Shown here piece by piece: positions 2,658 to 13,197 of a stretch of DNA of 46,928 nt (within the stretch, counting starts at the first letter, position 1; the number at the start of each line of letters is the position of its first letter). The translations under genes were made by a program, and so were the position numbers. The notes beneath the pieces were generated by a model. That model saw only the letters and a list, made by a program, of their open reading frames with translations. It was not told where the DNA came from and did not search any database. The stretch lies in the IMG/VR virus record IMGVR_UViG_3300027777_000057, positions 1 through 46,928 of that record; one strand, written 5' to 3'. This DNA is from a virus.

Positions 2658-3020
2658 ATGGAAACAATATATTCAACAAGATTCGATAGAGCATCTGTAG
2701 TAAAGTCCGAAGGTACACTTGTTAATGTAATAAACAAAGTATGGTATACTATAGTTGCTACAACTAGTGATGGGTATATAAAGATACTGAAGAAGAGTAT
2801 TGACTTCCCTTCTCCAGCTCCTCAAGACTTTGTAGAAATTCAGTATGTCACTGAACAAATGTTAATAAATTGGATAGAAGCTCAACCAGAGTATCTAACA
2901 GATAATGACAAGCAATCTATTGAGTTTAGATTACAGTTAGAAAGAGATAAATTAACATATAGTGATTATATGTTTAGTTTTATGCCATATGATGAATTAA
3001 GATATAATCTTGTTAACTAA
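2658..3020 (+). CDS. Hypothetical protein following the fibre genes
   Basis: 120 residues beginning METIYSTRFDRASVV, two bases after the previous stop. It has no signal peptide, membrane segment or catalytic motif. The second half is charged and probably helical. It is the last rightward gene of the fibre operon. Its final 8 bases overlap the 3' end of the convergent glycosyltransferase gene, leaving no room for a separate terminator. A fibre-assembly role would suit the position but is only a guess. Confidence 0.65.
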   Translation: METIYSTRFDRASVVKSEGTLVNVINKVWYTIVATTSDGYIKILKKSIDFPSPAPQDFVEIQYVTEQMLINWIEAQPEYLTDNDKQSIEFRLQLERDKLTYSDYMFSFMPYDELRYNLVN

Positions 3021-5031
3021 TAGGTAGTGCTTTGATTACGTCTTTAGCCGTAATGTTCTTTTGACATTCAAATTGTCTAGGAGTTGATCTGTGTATAGGA
3101 CACCAATCAAAATCACCTTTATCAAATTTAAACAAAGGATTGTTCCAACACCCGTGGCACACATTCTCGTTAACTACACGTATACAATCAAACTCATGTG
3201 CACGTGTAGTAAAGTTACTAATCATTACTACAGGTTTGCCGATAGCCCAAGCTAACCACGACAGACCACTACTCAAGCCTATCATAAACTGACTATGGTA
3301 GATAACACTCATGGTATTTTCTATATCAGTGTCATCTATCTTCTGGCAATTATCAAACGGATTATCCTCCTTTGAGACATTCACCACTACAAATCCTTCA
3401 TTATGTAAGTAATTTATAACTTCTTGCCAACCTTCTCTTGTCCAAAACTTACAACCTGCTGTTGAGTTGGTAGCAATAGTAACATATTTACCATATTTAT
3501 TCTTACGCTTTCTAAACTTTAAATTTGGTCTAAGCTCCTCAAACTCTAAGCCTAATATATTAGTGGCTGCTTCTTGAAGTTTTATTGTATTAGGTAGCAT
3601 AGGTTCTTTATTTGAATCATAGAACCACCCAATATTATATTGTGCAAATATATTATTAACTACAGATCCTGGTTCAACTAGTTCTATTTCAGGTATGTCA
3701 AGTATATGATTCCAAAAAGTGGAGAGTATTACTTTGCAGTTATGTTTCTTTTGAAAAGCAAGAGCATAAGGAGCCCATGCAATTGTATCTCCTAATGACT
3801 TACTAGCCAAGGTGATGAACACTCTTTTATTCTCAAGCGATAACTTATACTCATATATTAGTTTATTAAGCTCAAATATTTTGATCTGCCAATCAGTATA
3901 ATATTCTCTATTTAATCTAACCCATGAGTTAGAACCTATAGTGTTCTCATAATGACAAACATTATTCTCATCAAAGTATTGTACCTTAAACTCTGAGTTA
4001 ACAGGTGATTTAATCTCAAGAAAGGGTTGTTCAACAAAGTATCTAGATATATGTAGGTGTTGTTCTTCATGTGGTATTGTTAACACTTTATTATAGAACT
4101 TATTATACTTTTCAGCAAAAACATCTGATGTATTATCTGTAGGTACAACATAATTACATTTTATAGTAGTTAAGTCTGTATCTATAGGCTGAATATACTT
4201 TTCAAACATTGATCCATATTGGGGCAAGTTGTGAGCAATAATTGGCAAGCCGTAACTAATAGCTTCTCTAAGCACTAATGGATTGCATTCCCATGTGCTA
4301 TTGAACATAAATATGTTAGCATGTTTTAAGAACTCATCCACATCATCCCTCTCTCCCCACACTTTAACATTACTTGGTAGATTAATCATTAATGGCTCCC
4401 AATAATCTTTAAAGTTGCCTGCTTGGTTACCTACAAAATTGAAGTTAAAGTTAGGGTTAGCACGTGCTATCTCTATGCCCTCAGCTTGATTCTTTCCTGG
4501 TGTCCATAGTCCTACATTAACCACATTATTTATACCAGGAAGTTTTTTTGATTTCTTAGGGTCAATAGGATATTCAATGACTTGTTTATAAGATGGTAAG
4601 TCTTTAAATGTATGCAAGTGGTAAGGTGTGCAGAAAGCATACGCATCAGGGTGATATAATTTAGTCTTAGGATCAAATGACACATCGTGACAAGTCTCAA
4701 TAATATTATAATGTCTAGTTGGTCTATAAAGTTCACTCATGATGTGAGCATCAAACCGCTCCGATGGTTCATGAATGTGAATGATGTCAGGATTAAAATC
4801 TTTAATAATATTAAAGAGCTCAGTCTTATCTTCAAATAAAGTGTGAAAGTTATCCCCTACTAATTCTTTAATCTTATTTCTTTGCACCACATAGTCTAAA
4901 CTATAACAAGTATATTCAACTACACATATATTAATATATTTTTGTAGCACTTCTATACTCTTGAGTACAAATGCAGGCATGCCTCCTGTAGATAAATGAG
5001 GAACTAGATATAATACTTTTGCTTGTTTCAT
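3013..5031 (-). CDS. Bifunctional glycosyltransferase: GT4-like domain plus TibC/Aah-type O-heptosyltransferase-like domain
   Basis: 672 residues. Residues 1-330 resemble GT-B retaining glycosyltransferases (LVPHLSTGG near the N-terminus; FMFNSTWECNPLVLREAISYG at 241-261 as the nucleotide-sugar-binding region). From about 345 onward the sequence follows bacterial autotransporter heptosyltransferases: SLGDTIAWAPY (412-422), STAGCKFWTREGWQEV (523-538), GLSSGLSWLAWAIGKPV (585-601). It ends with a four-cysteine motif (C625, C628, C644, C656; CHGCWN, then DWCP, then RQFEC), which I recall binding iron in TibC. Known members attach heptose to Ser of beta-helical autotransporter passengers. The gene is antisense to the fibre operon and divergent from a DUF6165 gene. 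The donor sugar and acceptor are not known; modification of the phage fibre or a host surface protein is inference. Confidence 0.85.
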   Translation of the reverse strand: MKQAKVLYLVPHLSTGGMPAFVLKSIEVLQKYINICVVEYTCYSLDYVVQRNKIKELVGDNFHTLFEDKTELFNIIKDFNPDIIHIHEPSERFDAHIMSELYRPTRHYNIIETCHDVSFDPKTKLYHPDAYAFCTPYHLHTFKDLPSYKQVIEYPIDPKKSKKLPGINNVVNVGLWTPGKNQAEGIEIARANPNFNFNFVGNQAGNFKDYWEPLMINLPSNVKVWGERDDVDEFLKHANIFMFNSTWECNPLVLREAISYGLPIIAHNLPQYGSMFEKYIQPIDTDLTTIKCNYVVPTDNTSDVFAEKYNKFYNKVLTIPHEEQHLHISRYFVEQPFLEIKSPVNSEFKVQYFDENNVCHYENTIGSNSWVRLNREYYTDWQIKIFELNKLIYEYKLSLENKRVFITLASKSLGDTIAWAPYALAFQKKHNCKVILSTFWNHILDIPEIELVEPGSVVNNIFAQYNIGWFYDSNKEPMLPNTIKLQEAATNILGLEFEELRPNLKFRKRKNKYGKYVTIATNSTAGCKFWTREGWQEVINYLHNEGFVVVNVSKEDNPFDNCQKIDDTDIENTMSVIYHSQFMIGLSSGLSWLAWAIGKPVVMISNFTTRAHEFDCIRVVNENVCHGCWNNPLFKFDKGDFDWCPIHRSTPRQFECQKNITAKDVIKALPIS

Positions 5032-6822: not shown

Positions 6823-7240
6823 TGCACAAGCATTAAAAAAATATGGACAACCTGATCTCCTTGCTACACAAAGCAAGCATATGGTTATGTGGGATATTCC
6901 CACAGAGCTAGAAATTGGTGTCATCCCTAAAAAACTATATTGTAATACAGACATGGTGAAGCCTCTTGAACAAGCATTTAAAAACTTGATTCAACGTAAC
7001 CATGTAAATGAACTTAAGACATGGGACGGTTGCTTTAACATTCGTAAGAAGCGTGGTTTAACATCTATGTCATTACACTCATGGGGTATTGCTATTGATG
7101 TCAATGCTTTCGAGAATCAATTAAATCAAATTCCTAAGTTGTCTTCAGGTTTTGTTAAATGCTTCAAAGATGCAGGATTTGATTGGGGTGGAGACTGGCA
7201 AAGGTTGGATGCAATGCATTTTCAATTATCTAAAATATGA
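6812..7240 (+). CDS. M15-type peptidase, endolysin (L-Ala-D-Glu / D-Ala-D-Ala peptidase)
   Basis: 142 residues from the ATG at 6812 (MVTSAQALKKYG). The zinc-site motifs of the M15 family are present: SLHSWGIAIDVN (H and D ligands) and the C-terminal WGGDWQRLDAMHFQL (catalytic Asp region, His ligand). Phage members such as the T5 endolysin cut peptide cross-links in peptidoglycan. There is no signal peptide, consistent with release through the holin. The preceding spanin and holin candidates complete a lysis cassette. Confidence 0.85.
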   Translation: MVTSAQALKKYGQPDLLATQSKHMVMWDIPTELEIGVIPKKLYCNTDMVKPLEQAFKNLIQRNHVNELKTWDGCFNIRKKRGLTSMSLHSWGIAIDVNAFENQLNQIPKLSSGFVKCFKDAGFDWGGDWQRLDAMHFQLSKI

Positions 7241-7794
7241 ATTCTGGTCTATATAGTATATTTTGTAGTATAAACTTTAAATATTATATAGGTCAAGCAA
7301 TTGATGTAGATAAACGTATAAAGGCTCATTTAAATAAATTATCAGCAAATACTCATCATTCTCCTTACTTACAACATTCATTTAATTTATACGGTAAAGA
7401 GAGTTTAACATTTGAAGTTTTAGAATATTGTAATATTGAGGAGTTAGATAATAAAGAAATATATTATATATCAAAATATAATTCTCTAAACCCTAACGGT
7501 TTTAATTGCACTATAGGTGGTAATGGTATGAGAGGTTTTGTATTTTCAGAAATTACAAAACAAAATTGGTCAAATAAAAGAAAAGGCAAATATTTAGGAA
7601 TAGAACATCCTAAAAGTAAAAAGATAAAAGGTACAGATTTAAAAACAGGTGAGTTATTATATTTTGATTCTTTACAATGTGCTGAAAGATATTTAAATAT
7701 AAAAGGAGCTAATAAAAATATAAGTGCTAATTGTAAAGGTAAAAGGAAAAGTGCTTACGGATACAATTGGCAACATCAACTTGCATCTATATAA
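7237..7794 (+). CDS. GIY-YIG homing endonuclease
   Basis: 185 residues. GLYSIFCSINFKYYIGQ at the N-terminus is the GIY-YIG motif; KRIKAHL holds the catalytic Arg region, and EIYYISKYNSLNPNGFN with CTIGGNG continues the domain. The C-terminal 50 residues (TGELLYFDSLQCAERYL, GYNWQ) look like NUMOD-type DNA-binding repeats. Such enzymes nick DNA and spread by homing, free-standing or in introns. It overlaps the endolysin stop by 4 bases. It is more A+T-rich than its neighbours, which suits recent arrival. I see no intron around it. Confidence 0.85.
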   Translation: MNSGLYSIFCSINFKYYIGQAIDVDKRIKAHLNKLSANTHHSPYLQHSFNLYGKESLTFEVLEYCNIEELDNKEIYYISKYNSLNPNGFNCTIGGNGMRGFVFSEITKQNWSNKRKGKYLGIEHPKSKKIKGTDLKTGELLYFDSLQCAERYLNIKGANKNISANCKGKRKSAYGYNWQHQLASI

Positions 7795-8113: not shown

Positions 8114-8608
8114 ATGGCAATACCTTCGAAAGAAATCGGGTGGGGAACAGAAGAAAATCTGTTGTGGCAAATCTCTAAACAATTAGAGACTTTGACAAGC
8201 GTTACATATAATAGTGGTACAGTAATTCTTCCACCAAATAGAGGTGGTACAGGTCAATCTACTTATGCAGACGGAGAACTATTAATTGGTAACACTACAG
8301 GAAATACCTTATCTAAAGCTACATTAACTCAAGGTACAGGTATTTCAATTGTAAATGGTAATGGTTCTATTACTATTACAGCTACAGGAGCTGCATCTGG
8401 AGCAATAATTACAGGAGGAACATCTATTAATGCCTCTGCGCAATTACAAGTAGATTCTACTACAAAAGGAGTTTTATTTCCTAGAATGACAACTGTTCAA
8501 AAGAATGCAATAGTTTCTCCAGCTGCTGGCTTAGTTGTTTATGATACAACTTTAAATAAACTTTGTGTAAGAACCGCATCTGCTTGGGAGGTAATAACAT
8601 CTTTATAA
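8114..8608 (+). CDS. Virion appendage protein with shared LLWQISKQL N-terminal module
   Basis: 164 residues. The first 30 (MAIPSKEIGWGTEENLLWQI, then SKQLETLTSV) match the start of the protein at 8961, so they form a reusable attachment module. The rest is Gly/Thr/Ser-rich and beta-patterned: PPNRGGTGQSTYADGELLIG is typical of phage fibre and baseplate-wedge proteins, and GVLFPRMTTVQKNAI with AGLVVYDTTLNKL is common at fibre C-termini. It is probably a short fibre or spike. No enzymatic motif. Confidence 0.75.
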   Translation: MAIPSKEIGWGTEENLLWQISKQLETLTSVTYNSGTVILPPNRGGTGQSTYADGELLIGNTTGNTLSKATLTQGTGISIVNGNGSITITATGAASGAIITGGTSINASAQLQVDSTTKGVLFPRMTTVQKNAIVSPAAGLVVYDTTLNKLCVRTASAWEVITSL

Positions 8609-8960: not shown

Positions 8961-9134
8961 ATGGCCATACCTGCAATACAAATAGGACAACCTTCTAGTA
9001 CTAAAGCAAAACTGCTTTGGCAGATCTCTAAGCAATTACAAAATCTAACAAGTGTTATGTATAATAGAGGTCTTACCACCACAACTACTACTACTGTTGC
9101 ACCTACAACCACTACTACAACCACTGCTCCTTAA
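8961..9134 (+). CDS. Short virion-module protein with poly-threonine tail
   Basis: 57 residues. The first 32 (MAIPAIQIGQ, LLWQISKQLQNLTSV) repeat the module of the protein at 8114. The C-terminus is T7-VAP-T7-AP, almost pure Thr with Pro, like a miniature mucin. The codons alternate among ACT, ACC and ACA, so the run is selected at protein level rather than being a simple DNA repeat. A DxD glycosyltransferase gene starts 28 bases downstream, which makes O-glycosylation of the tail a reasonable idea. Confidence 0.75.
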   Translation: MAIPAIQIGQPSSTKAKLLWQISKQLQNLTSVMYNRGLTTTTTTTVAPTTTTTTTAP

Positions 9135-9162
9135 TAACAGATTTAATTAAACCAACAACTAC

Positions 9163-10182
9163 ATGAAGGAATTAAAATTCTTGTGTGCCCAACCTGATGA
9201 TGTATATTTTACATGGCAAGTGCATTTATGGCTAGAAAGTTTAAAAAAACTAGGACACTCAGATAAAGCAATTGTAGTAGTGTTCATTCCAAACTTTAGA
9301 GAGCCTAATAATGAATGGCAAAAAATTATTGATCTATATCCAGAAGCAGAGTTTGCTTTCTATAGAGATGATGAAAACACAGTTAGTCAATTATTAGGTA
9401 TTTATATTCCTGTATTACGTCCATACATATTAATGCGTTATTTTCAAGATCATCCTGAGATGAAAGAAAAAGCATTGTTATATTGTGATTGTGATATTGT
9501 TTTTACAGAGAAGTTTAATATTGATGATTATATTAATGATGATGTAAATTATTTATCAGATACTAATAGTTACATCAATGCTACTTACTTTGATAGTAAA
9601 GAAAAAGATGTTCTTCCATATAAACTAGAAGAATATAAACAACGTGATATTCTACAAGAAACTACAGCTATTTGTAATATCAATAGAGAAATTGCAGAAC
9701 ATTATAACTTACATTCAGGAGGAGCTCAATATTTATTAAAAAACATTGATGCAGAATTTTGGAAACATGTAATGGAAGATTGCATATCTATTCGTAGACA
9801 TTTAATGCAAGTAAATGGAGAGTTTTTTGAAAGTGAAGATAGAGGGTTTCAAAGCTGGTGTGCAGATATGTGGGCAGTTCTTTGGAATATATGGAGAGTT
9901 GAAGGTGTAACAAAAGTAATTCCTGAAATGGAATTTGCTTGGGCTTCTGATCCTATAGAAAAAGTTGAAAGATTAGGCATATTTCATAATGCTGGAATGA
10001 TAGGAGATACAATGGGTGATATTCCTACATTCTACAAAGGTAAATACCACAATGGAATGGATCCTTTTACAGATCCTCACATGATGACAGTATATAATGA
10101 TGAACATAGTAAGACGCTTGGTAGTTATTTCTACGTATCCAAACTTATAGAATTAAAACAAAAATATAATTTACAATATTAA
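9163..10182 (+). CDS. DxD glycosyltransferase, resembling peptidyl-Ser/Hyp O-glycosyltransferases
   Basis: 339 residues. A GT-A-type DxD (D109-C-D111 in LLYCDCDIVF) follows VLRPYILMRYF, the usual order for nucleotide-sugar transferases. LHSGGAQYLLKN near 183-195 and DRGFQSWCADMWAVLWNIWR near 227-247 look to me like the plant and algal peptidyl serine alpha-galactosyltransferase / hydroxyproline arabinosyltransferase group, but this is from memory. No signal peptide or membrane segment, so it acts in the cytoplasm. It lies between two genes encoding poly-Thr tails, which are its most obvious possible acceptors (inference). Confidence 0.7.
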   Translation: MKELKFLCAQPDDVYFTWQVHLWLESLKKLGHSDKAIVVVFIPNFREPNNEWQKIIDLYPEAEFAFYRDDENTVSQLLGIYIPVLRPYILMRYFQDHPEMKEKALLYCDCDIVFTEKFNIDDYINDDVNYLSDTNSYINATYFDSKEKDVLPYKLEEYKQRDILQETTAICNINREIAEHYNLHSGGAQYLLKNIDAEFWKHVMEDCISIRRHLMQVNGEFFESEDRGFQSWCADMWAVLWNIWRVEGVTKVIPEMEFAWASDPIEKVERLGIFHNAGMIGDTMGDIPTFYKGKYHNGMDPFTDPHMMTVYNDEHSKTLGSYFYVSKLIELKQKYNLQY

Positions 10183-10200
10183 TCTTAATTATTAAATAAC

Positions 10201-10701
10201 ATGGCAAATCAGAGAAATCTAAAAGCATTTGTTCGCTACGATGGTAGTGGAAGGGTTGTAGCAGGCAGCCTTATTCTGAGAAAACAGAAACCTAAAGTAG
10301 GTACTTGGCAACAAGTTCAGGGGTATAAGTGTTGTAATGATGCTACACTTACTACTACAGTAGCTACTACTATTACTAACTTCCAAGTTAGGGTATTCTG
10401 TGGAGGATCAGTAACTCAAATATTAACTTCAGGACAAAACTCTTCATCAGTAGCAGATTTAGTTACTAAGTTGAATGCTACTTACCCTTTATTAGGAGTG
10501 TTCTCTACAACAGGTGGAACAAATCTTACACTTGTAATGACAGGTGCTCAAAGTCAGGCTATTTGTCCTAACTCAGCTCCATCATTTACAGTTGCAATAG
10601 TTCCTCCAACAACTACAACCACTACTACTACAGCTGCTCCTACTACTACCACAACTAGTACTACAAGGCTTACCACCACTACCACTACAACAACAGTATA
10701 A
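10201..10701 (+). CDS. Virion-type protein with shared N-terminal module and mucin-like Thr tail
   Basis: 166 residues. Residues 10-40 (FVRYDGSGRVVAGSLILR, then KPKVGTW) align with residues 12-42 of the LCIB-like protein at 12223, with G-x-V-x-GSL and P-x-VG-x-W in common. The middle is beta-rich with two Cys (YKCCND) and a Gly/Ser/Thr-rich domain. The C-terminal 30 residues are nearly all Thr with Pro, Ala and one RL break. It follows the glycosyltransferase directly. It is probably a surface fibre or decoration protein with a glycosylated stalk. Confidence 0.75.
   Translation: MANQRNLKAFVRYDGSGRVVAGSLILRKQKPKVGTWQQVQGYKCCNDATLTTTVATTITNFQVRVFCGGSVTQILTSGQNSSSVADLVTKLNATYPLLGVFSTTGGTNLTLVMTGAQSQAICPNSAPSFTVAIVPPTTTTTTTTAAPTTTTTSTTRLTTTTTTTTV
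10609..10695 (+). repeat. Threonine-run coding repeat (mucin-like tail)
   Basis: Twenty-nine codons, 23 of them Thr written with mixed ACA, ACT and ACC, broken by AAP, one S and one RL. The codon mixture shows that the amino acid, not the DNA repeat, is conserved. Confidence 0.85.
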
Positions 10702-11803: not shown

Positions 11804-11874
11804 GCATCTTTGGTGTAACGGTAGCACGACACTCTCCAAAAGTGTTTGTAGAGGTTCAAATCCTTTAGGGTGTG
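11804..11874 (+). tRNA. tRNA-Trp (anticodon CCA)
   Basis: A full cloverleaf folds by hand: acceptor GCATCTT/AGGGTGT (three G-T wobbles); D stem GTGT/GCAC; anticodon stem ACACT/AGTGT with loop CTCCAAA (anticodon CCA); four-base variable loop; T arm AGAGG-TTCAAAT-CCTTT; discriminator G, as expected for Trp. The full 3' CCA is not encoded. It reads UGG only, so it gives no sign of stop-codon reassignment. The next gene starts 4 bases after the mature 3' end. Confidence 0.85.
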
Positions 11875-11878
11875 CAAT

Positions 11879-12222: not shown

Positions 12223-13197
12223 ATGGCAACAACAAATGTAAATATTCCTTTAAAACCTTATGCAAGGTTTAATGTGAATGGTAAAATAGTTCCAGGAAGC
12301 CTTGGTCTATTCAGAGGTGCTCCTATAGTTGGTATTTGGAAAGAAATGCAACCTATAGAGTATTTTAATAAAACTACTAAAAGTTATAGTGGAGTGATCA
12401 ATGCCACATATCCAAATGCTTTATTAGCTAATAGTGTTGCTTATAGCTTAGTAAGTTTTCTTGATAGTTTAGGTGCTAATGCATATGATACTGTTTTAAA
12501 TTCTACAACATGTTCAGATGATGTTAACGCTTCTGAATTTGCTAACATATTTAACATAGGTCAAAATCCTCCAGCATTAAATAACTATCTTGGACCATTT
12601 ATGGGTGGTGGACTTGCTGGATATCCTCATACAGGTATACTAGGAGCACAAGCTTGGCAAAGTCACACTACATCAGATGATAATGCAAATGGACCATTAT
12701 TATTAATTAACATGCCTCACATAGGAATTACACAACAAGCTGACCTTATTGCAGCTAATGATAATGTAGGTAGAATGTTAAGAAGAGGTAAGAGTTCTGC
12801 TACAGCTGATAATACATGTGGAGCCGTTGCTACAGCTATTGCTGATGCTATTACATTAAATGGTGTTGCACCAGTAGCTACAAATGCTCCTTTCATAAAT
12901 AATTATCAAAGATATCAACTTGCATTAATTGTTTACGCTTCTTATGCTTATTATAATACGCATACATATTCACAGAATATGATTCAAGCTACAGAACTTA
13001 TAAGAGTTGCAAGCTATAATATATTACATAATACAATTATTCCTGCATTAGGATCTGTAAACAATTTATATTTATTCAGTGGTACATTTATTAATGCTGA
13101 TGATGGTTATTCTGCATTTATTAATATTAATTCATTAGAAGTGAGAACTGGATCAACTTGGACATCTCTTACAACAAGTTTTTTAAATAGTTTATAA
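12223..13197 (+). CDS. Virion-type N-terminus fused to an LCIB-like carbonic anhydrase domain
   Basis: 324 residues. Residues 12-42 match the N-terminal module of the Thr-tailed protein at 10201. Residues about 50-290 follow the LCIB/LCIC family (limiting-CO2-inducible proteins, a beta-like carbonic anhydrase fold): C97-S-D99 in TTCSDDVN; GLAGYPHTGILGAQAWQSH ending at H148; DDNANG; MPHIGIT with H166; VGRMLRRG; and CGA at C199. In active relatives zinc is held by Cys-His-Cys with a nearby Asp, and C97/D99, one His and C199 suit that. The catalytic Arg I expect a few residues after CxD is not obvious, so activity is uncertain. The helical end (MIQATELIRVASYNILHNTI) also resembles LCIB. I infer display on the virion from the shared module. 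Confidence 0.7.
   Translation: MATTNVNIPLKPYARFNVNGKIVPGSLGLFRGAPIVGIWKEMQPIEYFNKTTKSYSGVINATYPNALLANSVAYSLVSFLDSLGANAYDTVLNSTTCSDDVNASEFANIFNIGQNPPALNNYLGPFMGGGLAGYPHTGILGAQAWQSHTTSDDNANGPLLLINMPHIGITQQADLIAANDNVGRMLRRGKSSATADNTCGAVATAIADAITLNGVAPVATNAPFINNYQRYQLALIVYASYAYYNTHTYSQNMIQATELIRVASYNILHNTIIPALGSVNNLYLFSGTFINADDGYSAFININSLEVRTGSTWTSLTTSFLNSL

Follow-up and report, generated by a model that had tools for sequence, protein, structure and literature searches.

The locus considered here raises the question of why a virus would encode two proteins ending in nearly pure threonine on either side of a gene for a putative glycosyltransferase. It lies in a viral DNA stretch of 46,928 nucleotides (IMG/VR record IMGVR_UViG_3300027777_000057), hereafter the window, for which a first-pass annotation had proposed a self-contained system that makes glycosylated stalks on the virion, with an enzyme recalling peptidyl Ser/Hyp O-glycosyltransferases. 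The analysis described below suggests that a phage GT8-like transferase most probably O-glycosylates Thr tags on virion proteins, and that by this route, many unrelated phages very probably place sugars on their own particles.

Threonine tails of the window

Both Thr-tailed ORFs were found where the first-pass annotation had placed them. The shorter one (8961..9134, plus strand) encodes a 57-aa protein that consists of an N-terminal anchor module (MAIPAIQIGQPSSTKAKLLWQISKQLQNLTSVMYNRG), which is also present in most related loci and in the ORF at 8114-8608, and the tail LTTTTTTTVAPTTTTTTTAP (9072..9131, plus strand), with two T7-xxP-like units and (ACN)7 at 9075 and 9105; the first T7 is followed by VAP, and AP closes the tail. 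The longer one (10201..10701, plus strand) encodes a 166-aa protein comprising an N-terminal anchor module (KAFVRYDGSGRVVAGSLILRKxKPKVG), a small middle domain and the tail PTTTTTTTTAAPTTTTTSTTRLTTTTTTTTV (10606..10698, plus strand), 29 codons of which include 23 for Thr; the structure model of this protein is of low confidence (pLDDT 65). The sole ORF between them on the same strand (9163-10182) encodes a protein of 339 aa with a DxD motif, D109-C-D111, in agreement with the earlier description.

In the rest of the window, Thr accounts for 5.5% of the codons, and the longest Thr run is 2. The number of T7 starts expected from composition is 2e-5, none of 200 shuffles yielded a T7, and (ACN)7 occurs 6 times in the window compared with 0 in 100 DNA shuffles. 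As had been noticed, the tails are written in mixed Thr codons (ACT 17, ACA 11, ACC 9; in other genes sampled, ACA 70, ACT 51, ACG 5, ACC 4) and, therefore, are not a DNA microsatellite. Among the 312 Thr runs of at least 4 residues in 69 relatives and their neighbours, the mode is 7, with exactly 7 residues in 161 runs, 8 in 41 and 6 in 19, and the residues that follow T7 in the related loci are mostly AAP, VAP or ATP. Simple triplet repeats do occur in some contigs, and of the contigs picked up in a scan for (ACN)7, roughly half carry it out of frame, as would be expected if poly-Thr was an artefact of triplet expansion in the DNA rather than a selected protein sequence. Against this stand the mixed codons, the sharp length peak at 7 with the xxP spacing, and the in-frame location of 63 of the 64 prophage tails described below, at most 12 aa from the C-terminus. 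Codon mixing and placement already refute the artefact reading, the probability of which is negligible.

A predicted GT8-like enzyme in a family listed without a function

A profile search with the 339-aa protein (9163..10182, plus strand) placed it in phrog_4417 (E 1.3e-52; enzyme residues 4-307 against positions 1-273 of 293), a family listed as 'unknown function', with the older annotation label 'prophage pi2 protein 34'. Every relative tested falls in the same family, and the homologs from Bacillota and Chryseobacterium phages match it with E values of 2e-78 to 4e-156. The Pfam search returned no family at E<=1 for the 339-aa protein and no relevant family for 10 divergent homologs, and the NCBIfam and PDB sequence searches with the 339-aa protein returned no match. 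Because there is no sequence-level match to any glycosyltransferase family, the assignment of function rests on fold, motif and context.

An AlphaFold2 model of the enzyme, for which an alignment of 23 sequences (window and locus proteins) was the input, reached a pLDDT of 94.9 and a pTM of 0.91. The top fold match in the PDB is glycogenin-1 (Z 14.7, rmsd 3.7, 228 residues), followed by LgtC (Z 13.8), the UGGT catalytic domain (13.6) and GlyE (12.8). D109 and D111 are conserved in all 138 distinct homologs, and H275, G278 and K292 each in 137 of the 138; a further motif is Q230xW232. Compared with the GT8 signature HxxGxxKPW, H275xxG278 and K292 are present, with another spacing and without PW. 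In glycogenin and LgtC, the metal is bound by the DxD motif and a C-terminal His, and the DxD and His of the phage enzyme are probably equivalent to these ligands, judging from order and conservation rather than from a residue-level superposition. The predicted fold and the DxD motif thus bear out the claim that the gene encodes a glycosyltransferase, and the protein can be described as a predicted GT-A-fold, GT8-like enzyme. The suggested resemblance to peptidyl Ser/Hyp O-glycosyltransferases gained no support from the Pfam and NCBIfam searches or from the fold matches listed: the best of these are GT8 enzymes such as glycogenin, LgtC and GlyE, and neither plant/algal Ser/Hyp nor mammalian mucin-type transferases appear in the lists, beyond which such kinship may still lie.

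In one contig (L113:2-1117, minus strand), the frame of a phrog_4417 homolog continues beyond the usual C-terminus (..KSMLDIPCGDFNWM) into a segment resembling the start of a methyltransferase and ends at the contig end.

Enzyme and threonine tracts in the lineage of the window

The best 80 of 269 matching stretches in IMG/VR, many of them on contigs of ~110 kb, were read. Typically, the enzyme is encoded between an upstream protein that starts with MAIPSRQIGW..LLWQISKQLE and 1-3 downstream proteins starting with KAFVRYDGSGRVVAGSLILRKNKPKVG. What follows the N-terminal modules is a Thr tail at the end of the protein, a Thr linker that leads to a C-terminal domain of variable type, or another domain; the variable domains are LamG-like (L005, Pfam E 6e-13), Cys-rich or leucine-rich-like. 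The notion of stalks gained no support: many relatives have the tract as a linker that connects the N-terminal anchor with a variable C-terminal domain, and the capsid and tail proteins of Bacillota phages bear it as a short tag at the C-terminus.

Under a relaxed tail criterion, a Thr-tract ORF was found within 3 kb of the enzyme, clustered beside it, in 69 of the 69 related loci with flanks, so that the survey for co-occurrence came out in favor of the proposed pairing; a stricter criterion scored 31 of 87 loci as tail-less beside the enzyme, but nearly all of the eleven that were inspected proved to have Thr tails or linkers, only shorter ones. When the lineage was sampled independently of both traits, using the unrelated neighbor gene DUF5856, 49 of the 50 loci with 5 kb upstream had both the enzyme and Thr tracts, one had neither, and none was discordant. 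Thr tails in related phages that carry no glycosyltransferase would have spoken against the first-pass proposal, and in the window lineage, the lone enzyme-less relative is also devoid of Thr tracts. In this relative, L413 (5617-7987), the anchor modules are kept, and the linker is either the polyproline GPAPGPPPPPPPALK or absent.

In one locus (L116:3508-3960, minus strand), poly-Thr lies directly upstream of the enzyme in a frame that has no ATG and shares sequence with the last part of the ORF before it (..DDDYDY and stop); a Thr tail may be appended here by programmed frameshifting, or the arrangement may be an assembly error.

The N-terminal modules are shared with other genes of the window. 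The 164-aa protein encoded at 8114..8608 (plus strand) joins the module seen in 8961-9134 to a tail-fibre-like body (phrog_31660, E 4e-15), which supports a role of the module in virion display; the Thr-tailed proteins of the window are themselves presumably located on the virion. The 324-aa protein encoded at 12223..13197 (plus strand) combines a module like that of 10201-10701 with an LCIB-type carbonic-anhydrase domain (LCIB_C_CA, limiting-CO2-inducible beta carbonic anhydrase; Pfam E 3e-17), and the same arrangement is found in a relative (L006:7773-8756); display of a carbonic-anhydrase-like domain by a phage would be odd. An inserted GIY-YIG/NUMOD homing endonuclease gene (7237-7794, plus strand) separates an M15 endolysin-like gene from the structural accessory genes, and a tRNA-Trp (CCA; 11804-11875, plus strand) lies inside the accessory gene cluster.

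Distant phages and prophages

A tblastn search detected the enzyme in 74-75 isolate records, mostly of Lactobacillus, Enterococcus, Staphylococcus and Lactococcus phages, along with Chryseobacterium phage MA9V-3; these distant enzymes are ~27-32% identical to that of the window. Thr tails occur on proteins of the capsid/tail region in phiFL1A (on a capsid-position protein and a tail protein), bIL285 (on the tail protein, KTTTTTTTTTRHD), VPE25, 1706, R3.3, iLp84 and Sextaecvirus phages, and on one protein of MA9V-3. A shared enzyme predicts that non-homologous proteins of one phage end in one motif, and such shared endings were found in phage 1706 (orf10 and orf13, TTTTTTTTTHHD), iLp84 (capsid and tail protein, TTTTTTTSK) and R3.3 (capsid-position and tail protein, SHA after the Thr run). 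Among Bacillota prophage loci with the enzyme (in Virgibacillus, Lentibacillus, Halobacillus, Lacticaseibacillus, Listeria, Clostridium and other hosts), Thr tails were present in 31 of 31, mainly on major capsid and tail proteins; this count includes six loci that were scored negative at first and in which tails were then found.

Divergent clades of the enzyme pair with different Thr motifs, namely T7xxP, TTVxP and TETQTQ. Phages SAC12B, LP65 and 9183 were considered as tail-less exceptions and rejected, given that they carry other Thr-rich repeats on genes preceding the enzyme or on the tail protein: TTVAPTTVKP (TTVAP/TTVKP) in SAC12B, TETQTQTQNPVTATTTETQTQTQ (TETQTQ) in LP65 and GATTTDPVTTTSTTRQ in 9183. 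The repeat-bearing LP65 gp051 is on record as 'structural protein 2-D,MS'. In phiFL1C (L341:5001-5747), the enzyme gene is cut by an apparent frameshift before H275, and the capsid-position and tail proteins are still Thr-tailed, which counts against the proposed pairing; this truncation is either a recent loss or a sequencing error.

Joint gain and loss of enzyme and tail

Homologous tail proteins with and without the tail provide a comparison in which the bodies of the proteins are 64-88% identical between tailed and tailless versions. Major tail proteins of the phiFL1A type are tailed in 4 of 4 phages with the enzyme versus 0 of 11 without it, and in the tree of this family, enzyme and tail change three times, always together. 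One such switch falls within Coetzeevirus, where R3.3 has both, and Bassarid and phiJL-1 have neither. For the bIL285 type, the corresponding numbers are 11 of 11 versus 0 of 34; L276 was examined as a mismatch in this set and rejected, its TTTTT being internal to the body, with no tail. The tie between enzyme and Thr tail thus extends to distant phages, through the pairing in the prophage loci and the co-loss on homologous tail proteins. Only a small number of separate gains or losses underlies these comparisons (3 for one tail-protein family, 1 for the other and 1 for the lineage of the window). The observations are therefore less independent than the raw counts suggest, and the evidence from joint gain and loss is strong but not overwhelming.

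Many phage glycosyltransferases target the host O-antigen or teichoic acid, and among the members of GT8 are lipopolysaccharide enzymes, including the structural neighbor LgtC. The enzyme could, accordingly, alter a host-surface glycan, causing receptor masking or serotype conversion, with the Thr tails being independent and unmodified. However, its gene is located inside head-tail structural operons, and in many phages it is the next gene downstream of the one for the tailed capsid or tail protein; it is present in lytic phages as well as in prophages; and homologous proteins lack tails exactly where the enzyme is missing. An action on host glycans is therefore highly improbable.

Alternatively, the tails may stay unmodified, serving as flexible or adhesive ends or linkers, and simply be co-inherited or co-exchanged with the enzyme block. 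Modular recombination commonly co-transfers phage genes; in the window lineage, the tract is often what connects the anchor with a variable domain; and in L413, polyproline takes the place of the Thr linker. The tailed genes are, however, several kilobases apart (the capsid gene is ~3.3 kb and the tail protein gene ~0.6 kb from the enzyme), and the tails appear on non-homologous proteins of different phages. Linkage alone is insufficient because it predicts neither distant, non-homologous tailed genes nor conserved bodies, and we regard unmodified tails as very unlikely.

Poly-Thr found without regard to the enzyme

In the converse scan, contigs were chosen for (ACN)7, blind to the enzyme. The phrog_4417 gene was present in 9 of the 42 contigs with in-frame T7 versus none of the 38 with out-of-frame (ACN)7 (p 0.003) and, among contigs of at least 50 kb, in 4 of 6 versus 0 of 10; one enzyme-carrying contig was moved out of the out-of-frame control, its poly-Thr being in frame in an uncalled ORF. 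Three quarters of the in-frame T7 contigs are without phrog_4417, many of them fragments or carrying an internal T7 in a different context, and poly-Thr alone is therefore no predictor of the enzyme. A 76.8 kb contig of a more distant phage without phrog_4417 (G003; L324-L327) encodes long pure-Thr tails on the capsid and other structural-region proteins. Because it has one gene of the GT2 type and one of a GT4-like type instead, other enzyme families may perform the same job, which suggests G003 as a candidate for a second type of tail-glycosylation system.

A proposed route to glycosylated virions

Beyond the central proposal, we consider it probable that a new GT8-like family itself starts O-glycosylation on portable poly-Thr tags, and that this is a widespread, undescribed virion glycosylation system. 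Phages of Bacillota and of Bacteroidota would have added the tags to their capsid, tail and accessory proteins on independent occasions, and the enzyme would have diverged along with the motif of its tag. The tags would take the form of about 7 Thr followed by xxP, or of T6-T9 at the C-terminus. The enzyme would work in the cytoplasm while the proteins fold or assemble, binding a metal and a nucleotide-sugar donor of the host and transferring the sugar to the hydroxyl groups of Thr residues within the tracts that phage structural proteins carry. In the window lineage, the acceptors would be the T7-xxP tails or linkers of modular accessory proteins, for which the two short N-terminal modules provide the anchor; in Bacillota phages, they would be T6-T9 C-terminal tags on major capsid and major tail proteins. 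Because such portable acceptor peptides are exposed C-termini or linkers, the resulting virion would be coated with clusters of O-linked sugars, for which shielding, hydration, adhesion or protease resistance are candidate roles.

The system was not found to be self-contained, as originally envisaged: the donor must be supplied by the host, and the window encodes a second glycosyltransferase, a 672-aa protein with Glycos_transf_1 and Glyco_transf_9 domains (3013..5031, minus strand), which is a candidate for extending the first sugar. This bears on a variant in which the phrog_4417 enzyme acts on the tails and only extends a sugar placed by another host or phage transferase, with the 672-aa protein perhaps sharing the pathway. 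GlyE and LgtC, both structural neighbors of the enzyme, lengthen glycans rather than initiate them, and in L005, a Galactosyl_T/Gly_transf_sug protein is encoded a few genes downstream. Nevertheless, phrog_4417 alone is common to all loci with tails; partial homologs of the 672-aa transferase were found at the edge of 7 of the 80 related loci, a count to be read with many flanks stopping short of its position; and the annotated genes of the bIL285 section around the enzyme include no second transferase. A purely extending role is thus rather unlikely, and initiation by the phrog_4417 enzyme is the preferred reading.

Members of phrog_4417 occur in 70-odd sequenced phages and in metagenomic contigs numbering in the hundreds. 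The present reading assigns a testable function to this family and, from sequence alone, names the acceptor of its enzyme. If correct, it bears on phage stability, adhesion, adsorption and immune recognition, and the short transplantable tag with its single cognate enzyme could serve as an O-glycosylation tool in bacteria.

Comparison with known systems

The similarity of the enzyme to CAZy GT8 (glycogenin, LgtC, GlyE) includes a predicted GT-A fold that spans almost the entire chain (Z 12.8-14.7) and the DxD motif; a conserved C-terminal H-x-x-G with a downstream K recalls the GT8 H-x-x-G-x-x-K only in part. Glycogenin and GlyE act on a protein or glycoprotein. The phage enzyme differs in that it has no detectable sequence homology to GT8, its spacing from HxxG to K is longer, it adds conserved Q-x-W-x-A-x-M-W and G-x-Q motifs, and its proposed acceptor is poly-Thr. 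Glycosylation of the mucin type and of serine-rich-repeat adhesins involves Ser/Thr-dense, Pro-punctuated acceptor tracts beside dedicated transferases. The phage loci likewise pair Pro-punctuated, Thr-dense tracts with an adjoining transferase, but here the tracts are short, nearly pure Thr and belong to cytoplasmic structural proteins, and the enzyme is of another family.

A literature search of mainly open-access papers, most subscription papers being outside its scope, found no earlier description of poly-Thr phage proteins or of a phrog_4417-type system. The closest parallel is in mycobacteriophages Che8, Corndog and Myrna, where phage transferases reportedly attach glycans to capsid and tail-tube proteins at their C-termini (Freeman et al. 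2023, Cell Host Microbe 31:1216, via PMC12619734, PMC12363180). Both cases have in common a phage-encoded transferase and protein C-termini, with the glycan in the present case being predicted from genes. The enzymes of Che8 are 108 (GT2-type with a methyltransferase domain), 109 (GT2-type) and 110 (GT25-type); they belong to PHROGs 8858, 1721 and 854, not to phrog_4417, and are unmatched by its profile. The capsid and tail proteins of Che8 have no poly-Thr tail. If the proposed function is correct, virion glycosylation would be a strategy in common use, served by an enzyme family of its own, rather than a mycobacteriophage oddity. Glycosylation of virions by phage enzymes is, then, already known; what seems to be new here is the enzyme family, the recognizable acceptor and the wide range of phages involved.
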